Shown: in pieces, positions 13,356 through 41,502 of the stretch | Position numbering within the stretch: the first letter of the stretch is position 1 | Layout of the letters: each line of letters opens with the position of its first letter | Assembly: GCF_018986435.1 (NCBI RefSeq) | Contig: NZ_JAHMIN010000012.1 | Span: 1 to 64,000, forward strand | Reading direction: 5' to 3' | From: Hahella sp. HN01 | GTDB taxonomy: Bacteria; Pseudomonadota; Gammaproteobacteria; Pseudomonadales; Oleiphilaceae | Length of the DNA stretch: 64,000 nt | Position numbers and translations under genes: made by a program | Notes under the pieces: model-generated | What the model saw: only the letters and a program-made list of their open reading frames with translations | Database searches by the model: none | What the model was told of the DNA's origin: nothing

Positions 13356-14588
13356 TCAGGCGGCTAAGAACCAGACTTTGACACGAGAGCCGGATTCATC
13401 CGTGGTCAATTCATACCGCCACCCCATGTGCTCGCATACCAGGGTGACGATAAACAGTCCCAAACCGCTGGAGCTGGGCGCCTCCTGTGAGAAGCCATTT
13501 ATGTTGCCGGCGCCTTCATCACGAATTTCCAGATGCTTCACATACTCCGTCACATAGACTTGGCCCTGAGTATGGTTCAGCGCATTAATGATGAGATTAT
13601 TGATGAGAATTTTCGCCAGGACGGGATCGCCCAGCGCAACCGGTTGCTGCGCCGATAGGGAAAGCTCCAGTCTGCCCTCGTTTTCGGTCGCGGACAGACC
13701 ATGCTCCTGCGCCAGCTCTTTCAGAATATCGCCCACCGGAAAGCTGACCGGCACGTAGGGTTCTTTTGTACGTCGCACCAGCTTAAGAAGCGCCTGCACA
13801 TTGGCGGACATTTCCTGAGCGGAGGCGCTGATGCGCCCCAGGGTTTTCTTGTCTTCCGCAGACAGTTTATTCCGATGTTCAATGACTTCCACCGCGCCCA
13901 GAATCACTGCGATAGGCGTGCGTAATTCATGGCTGGCGAGACTGACCAGCGAGCGTTCACGCTTGACCAGTTCATCTATCTGATCCAGGAATTTATTGAT
14001 CGCCTGGGAAATTTGGGTCAGTTCCGAGTCGGGATAATCAAGAGGTAAACGGAAGCCCCCCGTCGGCGCGGCGGCGTCAATGTCGCCAGTGAGCCCCTGC
14101 AACGGACGGGAAATTTTACGGCTGGCCAAACGCGCGGTAAAAAAGCTCAGCGCGCAAACCAGTAGCGCCAGCCCCAGAATAACGATGGTGGACTGCGTCT
14201 CGCGCTGCTCAAACAGCGCCAGATCTTTGGCCAGGTAATACACGCCCCCCGGCACTTCGTTGACGAGGATTTCATAATCCTTGCCATCGACATCCACTTC
14301 ACCGTTGTATGGCGCCGTCAGTCCACGGAAAACCGCGGGAAGTTTTTCTTCAGGCGGCGCCTCGCCCGGCCAATAGAACATGGTCAGCGTGGCGGTTTGA
14401 TTGAACTGGGGCTCATCAGGGTCATAGCGGCTTTGGAAGTGCTCCAGCTCCGCCTGCTGGTCCATCTCCAAAACGGTCGCCTCCAGCGCCTCCAGCCCTC
14501 CCCAGGCGACAGCAATCACCAGCAACAGGCTCAGCACGTTGCTCCAGAAAAATATGGTGAAAACGCGTCGGGAAATGGAGGTCGCCAT
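13356..14588 (-). CDS. Two-component sensor histidine kinase of the eptA locus
   Basis: 410 residues from the ATG at 14588, one base after the stop of the response regulator, so the two are translationally coupled. TM1 is about 8-30 and TM2 about 137-157, flanking a periplasmic sensor of about 105 residues. A HAMP-like linker (RKISRPLQGLTGDIDA) is followed by HisKA with the phospho-acceptor His in SLASHELRTPIAVI, and by an ATP-binding domain with N box LINNLIINALNHT, G1 DEGAG and G2 GLGLFIVTLVCEHMGW. The partner is the OmpR-type regulator upstream. Its position beside eptA and dgkA points to sensing of envelope or antimicrobial-peptide stress. Confidence 0.92.
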   Translation of the reverse strand: MATSISRRVFTIFFWSNVLSLLLVIAVAWGGLEALEATVLEMDQQAELEHFQSRYDPDEPQFNQTATLTMFYWPGEAPPEEKLPAVFRGLTAPYNGEVDVDGKDYEILVNEVPGGVYYLAKDLALFEQRETQSTIVILGLALLVCALSFFTARLASRKISRPLQGLTGDIDAAAPTGGFRLPLDYPDSELTQISQAINKFLDQIDELVKRERSLVSLASHELRTPIAVILGAVEVIEHRNKLSAEDKKTLGRISASAQEMSANVQALLKLVRRTKEPYVPVSFPVGDILKELAQEHGLSATENEGRLELSLSAQQPVALGDPVLAKILINNLIINALNHTQGQVYVTEYVKHLEIRDEGAGNINGFSQEAPSSSGLGLFIVTLVCEHMGWRYELTTDESGSRVKVWFLAA

Positions 14589-14589
14589 G

Positions 14590-15294
14590 CTAAGCCAGTT
14601 CCGGCTCCAGGCGATATCCGCGGCCATGAAGAGTGCGAATCATCGAACGGTTTAACGTTGTCTTCAGCGTTTTGCGTAAAACATAAACATGCGTACGAAT
14701 GGTGTGCGGGTCGCCGTCGGCGTTCCCCCACAGTCGCTGACTGAGTGTTTCATAGGCGACAAAGTTGGGATATGCCTGTATCAGCGCCTCAAAGATGGTG
14801 GCGCTGTATCCGCTCAAAGCCAGACGCTCGCCCTGCCCCGTCATGACCGTCAACGATCCTGGGGAATAGCGGATGTCTCCGGCGCTCAGATCGTCGTCGG
14901 CCAATTGGCGACGACGACACAGGGCCTGAATTCTTAGCTCCAGCTCGCGCATGTTGAAGGGTTTCACCAGATAGTCATCAGCGCCGCTGTTGAACCCTTC
15001 GGTTTTATCTTCAATGGAGTCTCTGGCGGTGACCAGAATAATCGGGGTTTTCTTGCCCAGGTCCGTTCTGATGCGCCGGCATAAAGTGAATCCGTTGACC
15101 CCAGGCAGCATCACATCCAGCACAATAACATCGTAGTGTTGCGTCGCCAGCAGATGCAGGGCCGTCAGACCGTCGGCGGCGAAATCCAGACTGTAGCGCT
15201 CTTCTCCCAAAAATTCGAACAGGTTCTCCGCCAGACTGCGATGGTCCTCAACGATGAGCACCCGAAGTTTGTCGGTAATCGTACGATCCGCCAT
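14590..15294 (-). CDS. OmpR-family response regulator of the eptA locus
   Basis: About 234 residues from the ATG at 15294; a GTG six codons upstream at 15312 is possible. The receiver domain begins KLRVLIVEDHRSLAENL, with the phospho-acceptor Asp in VIVLDVMLPG, the switch Thr in ILVTARD and the conserved Lys in DDYLVKPF. The C-terminal winged helix carries LSQRLWGNADGDPHTIRTHVYVLRKTL and ends GRGYRLE. It lies 88-106 bp after eptA and directly before the kinase gene, so it probably belongs to the same transcript and activates eptA, as PmrA- and CarR-type regulators do. Confidence 0.93.
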   Translation of the reverse strand: MADRTITDKLRVLIVEDHRSLAENLFEFLGEERYSLDFAADGLTALHLLATQHYDVIVLDVMLPGVNGFTLCRRIRTDLGKKTPIILVTARDSIEDKTEGFNSGADDYLVKPFNMRELELRIQALCRRRQLADDDLSAGDIRYSPGSLTVMTGQGERLALSGYSATIFEALIQAYPNFVAYETLSQRLWGNADGDPHTIRTHVYVLRKTLKTTLNRSMIRTLHGRGYRLEPELA

Positions 15295-15400
15295 TTTCCA
15301 ATCACTCAACACGTATAATTCGCCTTCGATTTCCTTACAGATCCGCTTAATTACCGCTTATCGCAGCCCACGCCACCCCGCGCAGGCCCTCAGAATACTC

Positions 15401-17152
15401 TCAACCTGGAGACGCCGCCATAGCGCCCACTTCTTCCCGTGGATCTCCCGAGGGAGAGGCCACTTCCAGACCGGTTCCGATACAAGGCCTGAAAAGATCC
15501 TGCTTCGGCTCGTAAACCTGCGTCCGCACGCCCATTAACCCAAGCATAGAATCAAACAAATTATCCTGGGTAAAATTTTGGGAGGCTTCCGCCTGCAGGC
15601 ACTCTGAGCTGATATTAAAGCGCTTCTCAAAACGCTCGGACATCCACACCATGAAAGGCACGTGGGTTTGTTCATCCGGTGCGATCATGTATGGAAGCCC
15701 GTGCAGATAAATATTGTTTTCCCCCAGGGACTCGCCATGGTCGGAAACATAAACCATAGAGGCGTCCGCCGCGCCGTCTACGGATTTGAGCAACCCGATT
15801 ACCTGCGACAGGAAATAATCCGTGTATAGAATCGTATTGTCGTAGGCATTAGTAATCTCTTCTTGCGAGCACTTCTGCAGCTGCACGTAGTGACAGGTTG
15901 GTTGATACTGCTGAAACGACTTGGGCGCGCGCAGATAATAAGCCGGCCCATGGCTGCCCTTCTGATGCAGCACGATCAGCATATCGCCTTTGGCGGATTC
16001 AATTTTCTGCCGTAACCGGTCCAGCAGCACCATGTCGTAGCATTCATCCAGACGACAAACGCCCGCCAGTTGTTCCGAGTTCAGATTTTCAAACTCCACG
16101 CGATCGCAAACCCCTTTGCAGCCGGAGTTATTGTCTCGCCACAGCACTTCCACGCCAGCATGCTTGAACACATCCAGCAGATTTTCCGTGTAACGCTCCA
16201 TGCCGCCGTCAAAGTCCGAGCGCCCTGCGCGAGAAAACATACAGGGCACGGATACGGCCGTCGCCGTACCGCAGGAATGAAAATTATCGAAACTCACCAC
16301 TTTCTCTTTGCTCAAGTTGGGGTTCGTCTCGCGTCCGTAGCCATTCAATGAAAAATTCTGGGAGCGAGCGGTCTCTCCGACCACCAGAACCGTCACTAGC
16401 TTGCGTTGGGGGTCGCTGGACACTTTTCTCAATTCAACACGCGCGGCGTCTTCTCCCAACGTAGTGAAGGCGACCTCCGTTTTCGGAGTCAGCTTGCGAA
16501 TATAAGAAGACGTTGAGTAGATATAGTTAACCGGCACGATCAAGTCGCGGATATAGCGATTGTTGCGGAATAAGGAGGCGTAGCTTTGATAGAAAGCGGC
16601 GGCGATTGCGCCAATCACCACAACGGCGAGCACCGCCGCCAGCAGCTTATTCACCAACTCTCCCGGCAACCGCTTGTAGTCAATGGGAATCCACGCCACC
16701 AGCGCCGCGGGAACCACGCCCAAAGCAATAACGTAGACAAATAACCATGGGTCCATCAGCTCCATAGACTCCCGGTAATCCGTCTCCATCATATTTTGAA
16801 TCATGGTCTTGTCGATCATGACGCCATAGGCGTTCATGAAGTATGCGGCGAGTGACGCCGTCACCAGAATGAACATCAATGTCGGCTTGAACAGATACTT
16901 GAAGGCGAACAGGGACAGGAAAAGATTAAAAATGACCAGCAGGAATAAAACTACGCTGACCATAAACATCAAGCCGCCGGAGCCTTCATCGCCCCGCAGC
17001 TGAAAGACCGTGGCGAAAAACTTTGTATTGAAGGCGCAAAGCAGATACACGGACACCACCAACGACATGAGCCATGTCGAAATGCCCGCTCCCAACAGTT
17101 TGTTAAGTTTGGCCCGAATCAACTCCCCCTCCTGCAAATAACGCACGCTCAT
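15401..17152 (-). CDS. eptA: Lipid A phosphoethanolamine transferase
   Basis: 583 residues. Five N-terminal membrane helices within residues 1-185 are followed by a periplasmic sulfatase-fold domain with the family signatures VVGETARSQNFSLNGYGRETNP (nucleophile Thr in GETAR), SCGTATAVSVPCMFS, and YVSDHGESLGENNIYLHGLPY for zinc binding. The enzyme moves phosphoethanolamine from phosphatidylethanolamine to lipid A phosphates, which lowers surface charge and gives resistance to polymyxin and cationic peptides. The reaction leaves diacylglycerol, the substrate of the DgkA encoded just upstream. It is followed by a two-component system on the same strand. Confidence 0.95.
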   Translation of the reverse strand: MSVRYLQEGELIRAKLNKLLGAGISTWLMSLVVSVYLLCAFNTKFFATVFQLRGDEGSGGLMFMVSVVLFLLVIFNLFLSLFAFKYLFKPTLMFILVTASLAAYFMNAYGVMIDKTMIQNMMETDYRESMELMDPWLFVYVIALGVVPAALVAWIPIDYKRLPGELVNKLLAAVLAVVVIGAIAAAFYQSYASLFRNNRYIRDLIVPVNYIYSTSSYIRKLTPKTEVAFTTLGEDAARVELRKVSSDPQRKLVTVLVVGETARSQNFSLNGYGRETNPNLSKEKVVSFDNFHSCGTATAVSVPCMFSRAGRSDFDGGMERYTENLLDVFKHAGVEVLWRDNNSGCKGVCDRVEFENLNSEQLAGVCRLDECYDMVLLDRLRQKIESAKGDMLIVLHQKGSHGPAYYLRAPKSFQQYQPTCHYVQLQKCSQEEITNAYDNTILYTDYFLSQVIGLLKSVDGAADASMVYVSDHGESLGENNIYLHGLPYMIAPDEQTHVPFMVWMSERFEKRFNISSECLQAEASQNFTQDNLFDSMLGLMGVRTQVYEPKQDLFRPCIGTGLEVASPSGDPREEVGAMAASPG

Positions 17153-39304: not shown

Positions 39305-40597
39305 ATGGATGTATCTCGCTGGAATCAAATACAAGAACTGTTCGAAGCAATCGCGGACCTATCCACAGAAGAACAACGGGCTTACCTGGATATTCATTGC
39401 CAGGACAACGAGCTGAAGAAAGAAGTCCTGCAACTGGTGCAGGCTGATGAGCACGTCGACGACATCCTCCCCAAGCAATATGACATCGCCTCCGCCGAGG
39501 CCACACTGGTGCTGCCGAAGATGCATCCCGGCGTCATGGTCGGCCCTTACAAGATCATTCGTAAGATCGGAGAAGGCGGCATGGGCTGGGTGTATAAGGC
39601 GGAAGACACGCGGCTGGAGCGCTTTGTGGCCCTGAAGTGTCTGGCGCCGGAAGTCGCGACTGACGAACGCGTCCGTTTTCGCCTGATGCAGGAAGCCAAA
39701 GCCATATCCCGCCTGGATCATCCAAACGTTTGTGTTATCCATGATGTCGGCGCCATGAGTGACGGCGGCATGTATATCGCCATGCAGTACTATAGCGGCG
39801 AGACGCTGGAAAATGCGCTGACCAAAGGCGCGCTGGCGCCAGATCAAGTGGTTCGCATCGCCAAGCAGATTGCTTATGGTCTGCAGGCGGCCCACCAACG
39901 CGACATCATTCACCGGGATATCAAACCCGCCAACATCCTGCTTTCCGAGGACGGCATCGTCAAAATACTGGATTTCGGCATCGCCAAGCTGTCTGGCGTC
40001 GATATCACCTTGGGCGGCGCTCGTATGGGCACCTTGCGCTATATGTCGCCAGAACAGTTGCAAGGTCGCGACATGGGACTGCAGACAGACGTCTGGTCCG
40101 TGGCGACGTTGATTTATGAAATGCTGACCGGCAGGGAAATGTTCGACGGCGAAAAATCCTCCACCGTATTACACGCCGTCATGCACGAAGAACCGGACTA
40201 CAGTCTGGCGGTTTTTCAGGAGTACCCGCTGTTCAAGCGATTATTGACGGCGATGCTGCATAAAAAGCCGGAAAAACGCCTCGACTCCATGGGCAAAGTG
40301 CTGCAATGGCTCACTACTATCCAGCCTATCGCTCAGGCCGGGGCCAAAAACAGGGCTCGTCAGGATCAGCGCATTGAGAATCAGGAAGCGGTAGTGAAGG
40401 AGGAGTTGACGGATTTGTATCTGTTGCGTCTGGCGGCGGCTCTCACCGCCCATGTCGGCCCGGCCGCTCCCAAACTGATTCAGCGTTACGCATCCACGTC
40501 AGATAATCGTGAAATTCTGATCAATTCGCTGGTGGGGCATATCAAGCCCCAATACCGGCAAATCGTGAGTCAGCAATTGAAAGAGATAGCGCTCTGA
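39305..40597 (+). CDS. Cytosolic Ser/Thr protein kinase paired with ECF sigma factor
   Basis: 430 residues without a membrane segment. The kinase domain runs about 80-335 with all catalytic motifs intact: Gly loop GEGGMG (89-94), Lys111 (VALKCL), helix C Glu130, HRD 203-205, DFG 223-225 and SPE 248-250. The N-terminal 70 residues (QELFEAIADLSTEEQRAYLD) resemble those of Ser/Thr kinases encoded next to ECF sigma genes. The C-terminal 75 residues, with LAAALTAHVGPAAPKLIQRYAS, resemble the DUF8082-type domain of kinases and cyclases. The sigma gene converges on it with only 14 bp between stops, so the kinase probably phosphorylates that sigma factor. Confidence 0.93.
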   Translation: MDVSRWNQIQELFEAIADLSTEEQRAYLDIHCQDNELKKEVLQLVQADEHVDDILPKQYDIASAEATLVLPKMHPGVMVGPYKIIRKIGEGGMGWVYKAEDTRLERFVALKCLAPEVATDERVRFRLMQEAKAISRLDHPNVCVIHDVGAMSDGGMYIAMQYYSGETLENALTKGALAPDQVVRIAKQIAYGLQAAHQRDIIHRDIKPANILLSEDGIVKILDFGIAKLSGVDITLGGARMGTLRYMSPEQLQGRDMGLQTDVWSVATLIYEMLTGREMFDGEKSSTVLHAVMHEEPDYSLAVFQEYPLFKRLLTAMLHKKPEKRLDSMGKVLQWLTTIQPIAQAGAKNRARQDQRIENQEAVVKEELTDLYLLRLAAALTAHVGPAAPKLIQRYASTSDNREILINSLVGHIKPQYRQIVSQQLKEIAL

Positions 40598-40611
40598 ACA
40601 GAGCGCCGTGA

Positions 40612-41169
40612 CTAGATTTTAAGCTCTTTCACCAGCCAGGCTTTGGCGAAACGCAGATCCCTTTCCACCGTGGAAAGGGAGACTTGCAGATATTCTGCGA
40701 TTTCTTCCTGAGTCATGCCCCCGAAGAAGCTCATCTCCACGATGCGCGCCTTACGCTCATCCACATTGGAGAGTTTTTGCAGGATGTCTTCCAGGTCAAG
40801 CAGGTCCGGCTGACTGCCGTCATCGCAAATCTGCGCTTCATGCAGCGTTACCTGAATGTCGTCGCCGCCGCGCTTCTTACGCTTCTGCGCACGGGCATGG
40901 TCTACAAGGATGCGACGCATGGTCTGCGCCGCCACGGCGAGAAAGTGAATACGATCGTTCCAGGCGACCTCTGCATCCACCAGGTGCAAATAGGCCTCAT
41001 TCACCAGCGCGGTGGCCTGCAACATGTGCCCCTGACGCTCGCCCGCCATGTAGCGACCCGCAATGGTGCGCAGTTCGCCGTGCAGAGATTCGATAATATG
41101 ATTAAGGGCTTGCGAATCACCGGCCTGCCAGTCGGCCAGTAGCTGAGTTACGTTGCGAGAGCCAGCCAT
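40612..41169 (-). CDS. ECF sigma factor lacking the acidic region 2.2 motif
   Basis: 185 residues from the ATG at 41169 (AGGAC 9 bases upstream). Region 2 is seen at about 20-95 (ALNHIIESLHGELRTIAGRYM; RILVDHARAQKRKKRG) and region 4 at about 130-180 (GGMTQEEIAEYLQVSLSTVERDLRFAKAWL). Where typical ECF factors have an acidic DAED-like stretch, this one has QATALVNEAYL (51-61), so Thr53 replaces a negative residue. In Vibrio EcfP the analogous Thr must be phosphorylated by kinase PknT before the sigma binds core polymerase. The convergent kinase makes the same logic likely here. Confidence 0.9.
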   Translation of the reverse strand: MAGSRNVTQLLADWQAGDSQALNHIIESLHGELRTIAGRYMAGERQGHMLQATALVNEAYLHLVDAEVAWNDRIHFLAVAAQTMRRILVDHARAQKRKKRGGDDIQVTLHEAQICDDGSQPDLLDLEDILQKLSNVDERKARIVEMSFFGGMTQEEIAEYLQVSLSTVERDLRFAKAWLVKELKI

Positions 41170-41298
41170 AGTCTTTAGTCCTGCTGAATTCGGGGGAACA
41201 TGCATTCCCTATGCTGAAGAATCTTGTTTATTCTTCGTATTTTAGGGAGCTGAGGGGCGGCTAGCAAACTAGATTTTCAGACAGCGCGATCCTTCGCG

Positions 41299-41502
41299 CT
41301 AGTTCCACTGCTCGTCAACGGCTTTCAGCAGTTGCGGTTCTTGCCAAGTGAAATTGAATGCGACTTCTTGAATGGCGGCATGCGCGTTTTCTTGCTCGCC
41401 GGTTTTCTGGGTAACGGTTTTTTCGCTGCTGTTCTGCATTAGAAATACTTGGAACATCACCATCATTAACGCAAGCAGTGCTGCAAAGATGTGTGCTTTC
41501 AT
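41299..41502 (-). CDS. Small membrane-anchored or secreted peptide
   Basis: 67 residues with a strong ribosome-binding site (AAGGGAAAGAAA before the ATG). A hydrophobic N-terminal segment (FAALLALMMVMFQVFLM) acts as signal peptide or anchor, and the rest is polar and acidic. It lies 129 bp upstream of the ECF sigma gene on the same strand and could be part of the same regulon. No family is recognised. Confidence 0.55.
   Translation of the reverse strand: MKAHIFAALLALMMVMFQVFLMQNSSEKTVTQKTGEQENAHAAIQEVAFNFTWQEPQLLKAVDEQWN

Follow-up and report, generated by a model that had tools for sequence, protein, structure and literature searches.

A soluble kinase facing an ECF43-type sigma factor gene in Hahella: a probable phosphorylation switch with a possible separate heme receptor

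The kinase and sigma factor genes and their setting

The window analysed here, a stretch of 64,000 nucleotides from Hahella sp. HN01, contains a complete gene for a Ser/Thr kinase of 430 residues on the plus strand (39305-40597) and, convergent with it on the opposite strand, a gene for an ECF43-type (TIGR02999) sigma factor of 185 residues (40612-41169), recognised as an open reading frame (ORF) with a match to the family profile. The stop codons of the two genes are 14 bases apart, and both ORFs read as in the earlier note on this DNA, which had described a complete soluble kinase facing an ECF sigma gene across a gap of 14 bp. No transmembrane segment is predicted in the kinase, its best 19-residue hydropathy being 1.33 against a threshold of 1.6. 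The longest ORF of the sigma gene spans 40612-41205 (minus strand), with a start at 41205 or, better, at 41169, because the latter has AGGA upstream and the ORFs of two other Hahella genomes (G004 and G006) begin approximately there. In these same two genomes, a small lipoprotein-like ORF lies between the kinase and the sigma gene (L150, 10104-10349; L152, 9730-9999) and overlaps the kinase stop codon by four bases.

The convergent pair is present in all seven Hahella genomes, the window included. Against three close genomes, the sigma gene displays 0 amino-acid versus 22-40 silent changes, indicative of strong purifying selection, and the kinase gene 2-10 versus 69-87. The convergent layout is no private oddity of the window. 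Among 118 surveyed sigma ORFs, counted after removal of four duplicate loci and with near-identical Hahella copies kept, a kinase is paired with the sigma in 96 cases: 77 sigma ORFs stand in tandem before the kinase, 11 are convergent (six of these from Hahella), 6 divergent and 2 follow the kinase. The other 22 have no kinase within 3 kb or within the available stretch; they include short stretches, and two of them (G158 and G391) proved to be convergent once longer stretches were read. Additional convergent loci were found beyond these counts. Among complete kinases of more than 300 residues, a simple hydropathy threshold predicts a membrane segment in 43 of 50 from tandem loci versus 2 of 10 from convergent ones (six of the 10 from Hahella), so that the usual form is a receptor kinase. 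The window pair is thus a member of the soluble, convergent minority among ECF43 loci.

The earlier note knew of no anti-sigma gene here and, consistently, no anti-sigma domain was recognised in the proteins of the scanned neighbours. A hidden anti-sigma factor could be sought, for example, in an ORF of 67 residues with one membrane segment (41299-41502, minus strand; found as an ORF and by hydropathy), which lies upstream of the sigma gene in the same orientation. However, anti-sigma genes usually follow the sigma gene, whereas this ORF precedes it, and its product amounts to one membrane segment plus approximately 45 residues; control of the sigma by such a factor appears extremely improbable. 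A small ORF with one membrane segment occupies the same place in 7/7 Hahella genomes, with BLAST similarity in six of the seven (window counted); the similarity in G004 and G006 is mostly that of the membrane segment, and the ORF of G003 was assigned by position only. In the window, 93 bp separate its end from the longest sigma ORF and 129 bp from the start at 41169, the distance being greater in G003, G004 and G006, and its 68 codons display 2, 3 and 1 amino-acid versus 5, 7 and 1 silent changes, which signifies weak constraint. No known domain was found in it by the scan. When the nucleotide sequences upstream of the sigma gene were aligned and judged by eye, nothing common was seen beyond four close Hahella strains, and this alignment identified neither a promoter nor a target gene of the sigma.

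The sigma factor and its candidate phosphorylation sites

The sigma matches TIGR02999 (Sigma70_ECF-type), which we take to correspond to ECF43, with 237.9 bits against a cut-off of 126.15, in agreement with the likeness to ECF43 that the earlier note had suggested, and Pfam Sigma70_ECF with 176 bits. Two proteins of its own genome match TIGR02999, and only the window sigma passes the family cut-off. Numbered from the start at 41169, the region 2.2 motif is Q51-A52-T53-A54-L-V-N-E. There is no acidic residue at positions 51-54, E58 remains, and T53 (codon 41011-41013, minus strand) occupies the place of the missing acidic residues, exactly as the earlier note had read it.

In ECF43 sigma factors, as described in PMC13147305 and PMC8999054, the acidic DxxD of region 2.2 is replaced, a Thr is conserved (QTTA-like), and activation is by a kinase. 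Likened by description only, PknT/EcfP of Vibrio parahaemolyticus, an ECF43 pair (PMC8999054, PMC13147305), resembles the window pair in lacking DAED, in having one Thr instead and in its kinase partner. The ECF43 pair PknS/EcfK of Xanthomonas citri is similar to the window in having Thr at two sites (51/106 versus 53/108), although the EcfK motif, QATE, still contains an acidic residue, unlike QATA of the window sigma (PMC13147305). The activating positions of EcfK, T51 and T106, are 55 residues apart, and so are T53 and T108 of the window sigma, the latter lying in the linker (codon 40846-40848, minus strand, counted from 41169); EcfK is known by these positions and stands outside our alignment. 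According to PMC13147305, the linker position of EcfK T106 is occupied by Ser, Thr, Asp or Glu in 76.9% of ECF43 members.

In a comparison with ECF43-type relatives, which the earlier note had proposed for region 2, column 53 is Thr in 33 and column 108 is Ser, Thr, Asp or Glu in 32 of 34 sigma rows gathered without a motif filter (four from Hahella). We rely on these rows because the larger count, T53 in 112 of 113, is biased, 79 of the 113 rows having come from a motif-seeded scan. Near-identical Hahella copies (L147, L148, L151 and L067), the shorter copies L017-L019 and ORFs matching over less than approximately 130 residues were left out of the motif counts and of the sigma tree. The spacing and the alignment support T108 as a second candidate phosphorylation site, the putative counterpart of EcfK T106, which extends the earlier one-site idea. 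However, the T51A variant of EcfK is functional in X. citri (PMC13147305), so that T53 need not be decisive.

By analogy with these systems, the unphosphorylated sigma would be devoid of a negative charge that is required in region 2.2 for interaction with core RNA polymerase. Phosphorylation of T53 and/or T108 by the soluble kinase encoded opposite would then allow the sigma to bind core. We consider this enabling phosphorylation very probable. Phosphorylation gating as such is likely here and already known for ECF43; in this respect the earlier note, which had proposed a phosphorylation-gated sigma, agrees with the motif, with T53 and with the kinase partner.

The kinase, its terminal modules and HAMP-ending receptors

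The Hanks-type kinase domain covers residues 82-327 (39548-40285, plus strand), with GEGGMG, HRDIKPAN and DFG motifs and a Pkinase match of 178 bits; all Pfam matches are to kinase-like families over this domain. It is preceded by a helical module of approximately 57 residues (39305-39475, plus strand), with helices at 3-16, 21-31 and 35-49 in the AlphaFold model. No convincing Pfam family was obtained for this N-terminal module, which is common to kinases beside ECF43 sigma genes: residues 1 to approximately 60 align with such kinases in an alignment of 29 rows. A fold search with the AlphaFold model listed 50 matches, all of them kinases, and is therefore silent on the modules at both ends. 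PDB chain 9eed_A ('Kinase domain protein', 364 residues), which we infer from its length to be PknS, aligns with residues 4-277. PknS resembles the window kinase in an N-terminal extension of approximately 80 residues before the kinase domain, predicted to be helical in both; that of PknS has 81-83 residues, is invisible in the crystal and is predicted to form three to four helices (PMC13147305). Whereas PknS is described as a transmembrane receptor with periplasmic TPRs (PMC13147305), the window kinase is a soluble protein with a C-terminal repeat, considered below, and its gene faces the sigma gene. Thus, of the PknS-type features, the helical extension is present, and the membrane segment and the periplasmic sensor are absent.

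The N-terminal module tracks the sigma family. Within its own genome, which yields 15 kinase matches, the module profile scores 1.8e-21 on the window kinase; the sole other match has 0.12, leaving the window kinase alone below E 0.1. In a class-wide search of 369 genomes, at least 18 carry a TIGR02999 sigma over the cut-off, at least 19 the module and at least 16 both, the last spanning 14 families (Fisher 4e-23, not corrected for ancestry). These counts and those given below for receptor and repeat are lower bounds, since only the best first-look candidates of each genome were scored (at most 8 for sigma, 17 for the module, 6 for the receptor and 17 for the repeat). Exceptions are G082, with a weak module on a convergent kinase, G230, whose locus is fragmentary, and G092, G183 and G242, with a module and no sigma over the cut-off. 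Furthermore, modules outnumber sigma genes in G331 (4 versus 1) and G423 (15 versus 8), so that the module needs no neighbouring sigma. We give an even chance to the proposal that it marks or docks the ECF43 substrate.

These data bear on the view that kinase and sigma are mere neighbours, with the sigma active unphosphorylated and set by its own expression. The functional EcfK T51A variant would fit this view, as would two relatives of the window sigma considered below: in G341 the kinase gene is approximately 260 kb from the sigma gene, and in G458 neither kinase nor receptor lies within approximately 8.7 kb of the intact sigma gene. Against it stand the pairing in all seven Hahella genomes and in 96 of the 118 surveyed sigma ORFs, the co-occurrence of module and sigma, and the missing acidic residues at 51-54, and we regard it as quite improbable. 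The kinase is the likely partner of the sigma, as the earlier note had assumed, judging from the Hahella pairing and the co-occurrence.

A tree of 53 kinase rows places the window kinase in a lineage with both the N-terminal module and the repeat, comprising 11 rows plus the kinase of G183 (support 99/96). The G183 kinase, which has no repeat, is the nearest to those of Hahella (91/89), and its genome has no TIGR02999-family sigma at the threshold used; at L203 of this genome (6100-10176), a kinase with the module is fused to a class III cyclase, AAA_16 and TPR repeats. The convergent ECF43 kinases at L154 (G015) and L155 (G008), of 335-342 residues, have nothing after the kinase domain.

The earlier note had labelled the C-terminal domain of the window kinase DUF8082-like, a name that Pfam does not confirm, giving nothing convincing for this region. 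Profile and alignment instead define a 'GP' repeat of approximately 55 residues, of which the window kinase carries a single diverged copy at its C-terminus (40418-40570, plus strand). The profile was seeded on Hahella and grew to include repeats of other families; in the class-wide search the window repeat scores 61 bits, the window row itself being part of the query. Two copies are found on a second Hahella kinase and two on an orphan protein of 203 residues without Pfam domains (L301, G000:C64, 6138-6749). Genes with the repeat usually neighbour one for a membrane protein that combines a Tll0287-like domain containing CxxCH, two membrane segments and HAMP near its end. Across the 369 genomes, at least 24 encode this receptor (E<=1e-60), at least 30 the repeat and at least 23 both, in 15 families (Fisher 2e-29, not corrected for ancestry). 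Of 36 receptor loci (seven from Hahella), 31 have a repeat ORF on the same stretch; two others adjoin a kinase truncated where the stretch ends, a sigma takes the place of the repeat ORF in one, and the last two have nothing within reach. Conversely, seven genomes have the repeat and no receptor at the threshold: dCache-HAMP proteins adjoin it in three, receptor-like pieces were found in two, and neither was found in the available stretch of the last two. At L282, L283 and L284, repeat proteins stand beside HAMP-ending proteins with dCache-type sensors, the match in L283 being weak and below Pfam's cut-off.

The repeat is also fused to class III cyclase domains (L235, L237, L238, L239, L270 and L261; in L239 and L261 the cyclase match is below Pfam's cut-off), and a heme-Cache-HAMP receptor ORF, whole or partial, adjoins all six of these genes except L261. 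Among kinases, it occurs on two lineages, the one with the N-terminal module and another without it, of 10 rows (95/90), which includes the second Hahella kinase; the repeat kinase of L243 forms a very long branch outside both groups. Since the repeat moves between effectors and the same kind of receptor is kept, it is best read as the receptor's putative contact point on the effector. The earlier suggestion that the C-terminal domain may sense the signal fits this pattern in that the repeat, as a possible input module, tracks HAMP-ending membrane receptors. That a HAMP-ending receptor acts on the kinase at the repeat seems to us rather probable.

Sister loci, candidate inputs and the signal

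In the sigma tree, the window sigma groups with those of G341, G391, G158 and the Chromatiales locus L068 (87/88, below the starred level). Further loci with similar scores, 304-333 bits (G391 itself 331), come from the taxonomic order to which G391 belongs and stand outside the tree. Altogether, eight intact sister loci were considered: G158, G391, G341, G443 (identical with L068), G444, G455, G456 and G458. L068 and G443 (L285 and L295) are one contig of 4159 bases, and L067 and G003 are likewise one contig, each counted once; the sigma match of G442 contains internal stop codons and was excluded. A receptor gene faces the sigma gene in seven of the eight, directly in six and with approximately 2 kb between them in L068, and in five a repeat kinase gene precedes the receptor gene in the same orientation. 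The commonest order is thus kinase, receptor and then the sigma facing both. Six genomes searched from the taxonomic order of G341 yielded no further case. In L296 (7799-8299), L297 (1024-1521) and L298 (2572-3063), a secreted-looking gene for approximately 165 residues lies between kinase and receptor; scanned in L296 only, it has a weak IalB-like match below Pfam's cut-off. The sister receptors have a periplasmic c-heme Cache domain, with CxxCH kept in the five aligned and in the Hahella copy. Apart from the missing receptor gene, the Hahella locus looks like the sister arrangement, its kinase and sigma genes lying next to each other; the receptor gene may have been lost. Of the features of a HAMP receptor with its repeat effector, the window retains the repeat, and no receptor gene adjoins the pair.

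A kinase without a membrane part must receive any outside signal via another protein. The only full-length receptor of the window's own genome (G000:C2:106492-107361) lies beside another kinase with two repeats; the same locus (L300, 7330-11157) also includes a lipoprotein-like gene of 352 residues. Each of the seven Hahella genomes has one full-length receptor, adjoined by a kinase in all seven, and receptor and sigma genes are widely separated in the three genomes that consist of a single contig (for example 5,613,327 versus 686,151 in G001). Wherever loci of repeat-bearing kinases with the N-terminal module were examined (Hahella, G092, G158, G341, G391, G444 and G456), the genome encodes a receptor. 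As candidate inputs in Hahella we name this distant receptor, whose action in trans on the window kinase is possible though rather unlikely, and the 67-residue membrane ORF, for which such a role seems improbable. The small ORF was also considered as a relic of the receptor and rejected, there being no similarity (best BLAST E 1.8).

Alternatively, the sigma would be phosphorylation-gated with an input in Hahella that is cytosolic or comes through the 67-residue protein, the repeat being a dimerisation remnant left after loss of the receptor. The presence of the small ORF in all seven Hahella genomes would suit such an input, as would the kinases of G008 and G015, which stand beside ECF43 sigma genes with neither membrane part nor repeat. 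The window repeat, moreover, is single and diverged and does not end in the ER..F that is frequent among receptor-linked repeats, and identity within Hahella is 38-44% for the C-terminal region versus approximately 58% for the whole kinase; this region may thus have changed partner. However, five aligned Hahella sequences agree at the core positions of the repeat, and the small ORF, besides its distance from the sigma gene and the missing known domain, is under weak constraint. We regard this alternative as unlikely, if less so than the others weighed here.

As to the signal, the sister receptors and the G000:C2 copy resemble the sCache_heme-HAMP receptor of Pseudomonas azotoformans, described in a preprint (PMC12889525), in their periplasmic Tll0287-like c-heme Cache domain, two membrane segments and cytoplasmic HAMP. 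The word 'serine' is absent from the main text of that preprint, and the link to repeat kinases and ECF43 comes from the present analysis. The P. azotoformans protein, which ends in HAMP, binds NO, which dissociates slowly, and does not form a stable complex with oxygen; stand-alone heme-Cache members look redox-related (PMC12889525). In the sister loci, where the receptor is encoded facing the sigma gene, the periplasmic c-type heme makes NO or redox state a likely signal, and NO is our best guess by analogy. For Hahella, NO as the signal is conditional on the receptor acting in trans.

The earlier note had instead followed Vibrio, in which polymyxin is the signal of PknT/EcfP (PMC8999054), and had named eptA as a natural target. 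An eptA-like gene with EptA_B_N and Sulfatase domains is indeed present in the window (15401-17152, minus strand, by domain scan), and the distance of 24 kb given for it holds from the sigma start, being 22 kb from the kinase. Genes for a response regulator and a histidine kinase adjoin it (13356-17152). Activation of the kinase by polymyxin, with eptA as a target of the sigma, would accord with ECF43 membership, with the Vibrio precedent (PMC8999054) and with this gene, but eptA has regulatory genes of its own alongside and no link to the sigma was found, a separation of 22-24 kb is no argument, and the kinase has no periplasmic part. Nor is polymyxin a family trait, as the X. citri pair responds to predation by amoebae and activates a T6SS (PMC13147305). 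Nothing found at the window points to polymyxin as the trigger, the sister loci suggest a heme receptor instead, and a Vibrio-like response is very improbable.

Collectively, we favour, with reserve, a split receptor feeding a kinase-gated ECF43 switch. Several observations weigh against it: the Hahella locus has no receptor gene, the window repeat is diverged, the convergent kinases of G008 and G015 and the G183 kinase have no repeat, the intact sigma gene of G458 stands alone, and the sigma grouping falls below the starred level. The most specific form of this reading is more tentative: a bare-HAMP c-heme Cache receptor would act through the repeat on a soluble kinase, whose phosphorylation of the ECF43 sigma would be aimed by the N-terminal module, and one Hahella receptor may serve both repeat kinases. 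The link between receptor, kinase and ECF43 was not found in print in the open-access literature, outside which most subscription papers lie. A survey of ECF43 kinases was reportedly made by Iyer et al. in 2020 and may include such receptor loci. What is new here is a separate heme receptor and two putative coupling modules without Pfam families around the ECF43 switch. Whereas the ECF43 kinases described in PMC13147305 and PMC8999054 have a periplasmic part of their own, at the loci considered here sensing is probably the task of a separate protein. This sensor has a chemically defined cofactor, so that the signal can be guessed and tested. If our reading of it is true, the repeat would be a general plug connecting HAMP receptors to separate effectors, both kinases and class III cyclases. 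Together, the repeat and the N-terminal module suggest a sequence rule by which receptors are matched to kinases and these, in turn, to sigma factors, and such a rule would allow the connections of many bacterial Ser/Thr kinases to be predicted.
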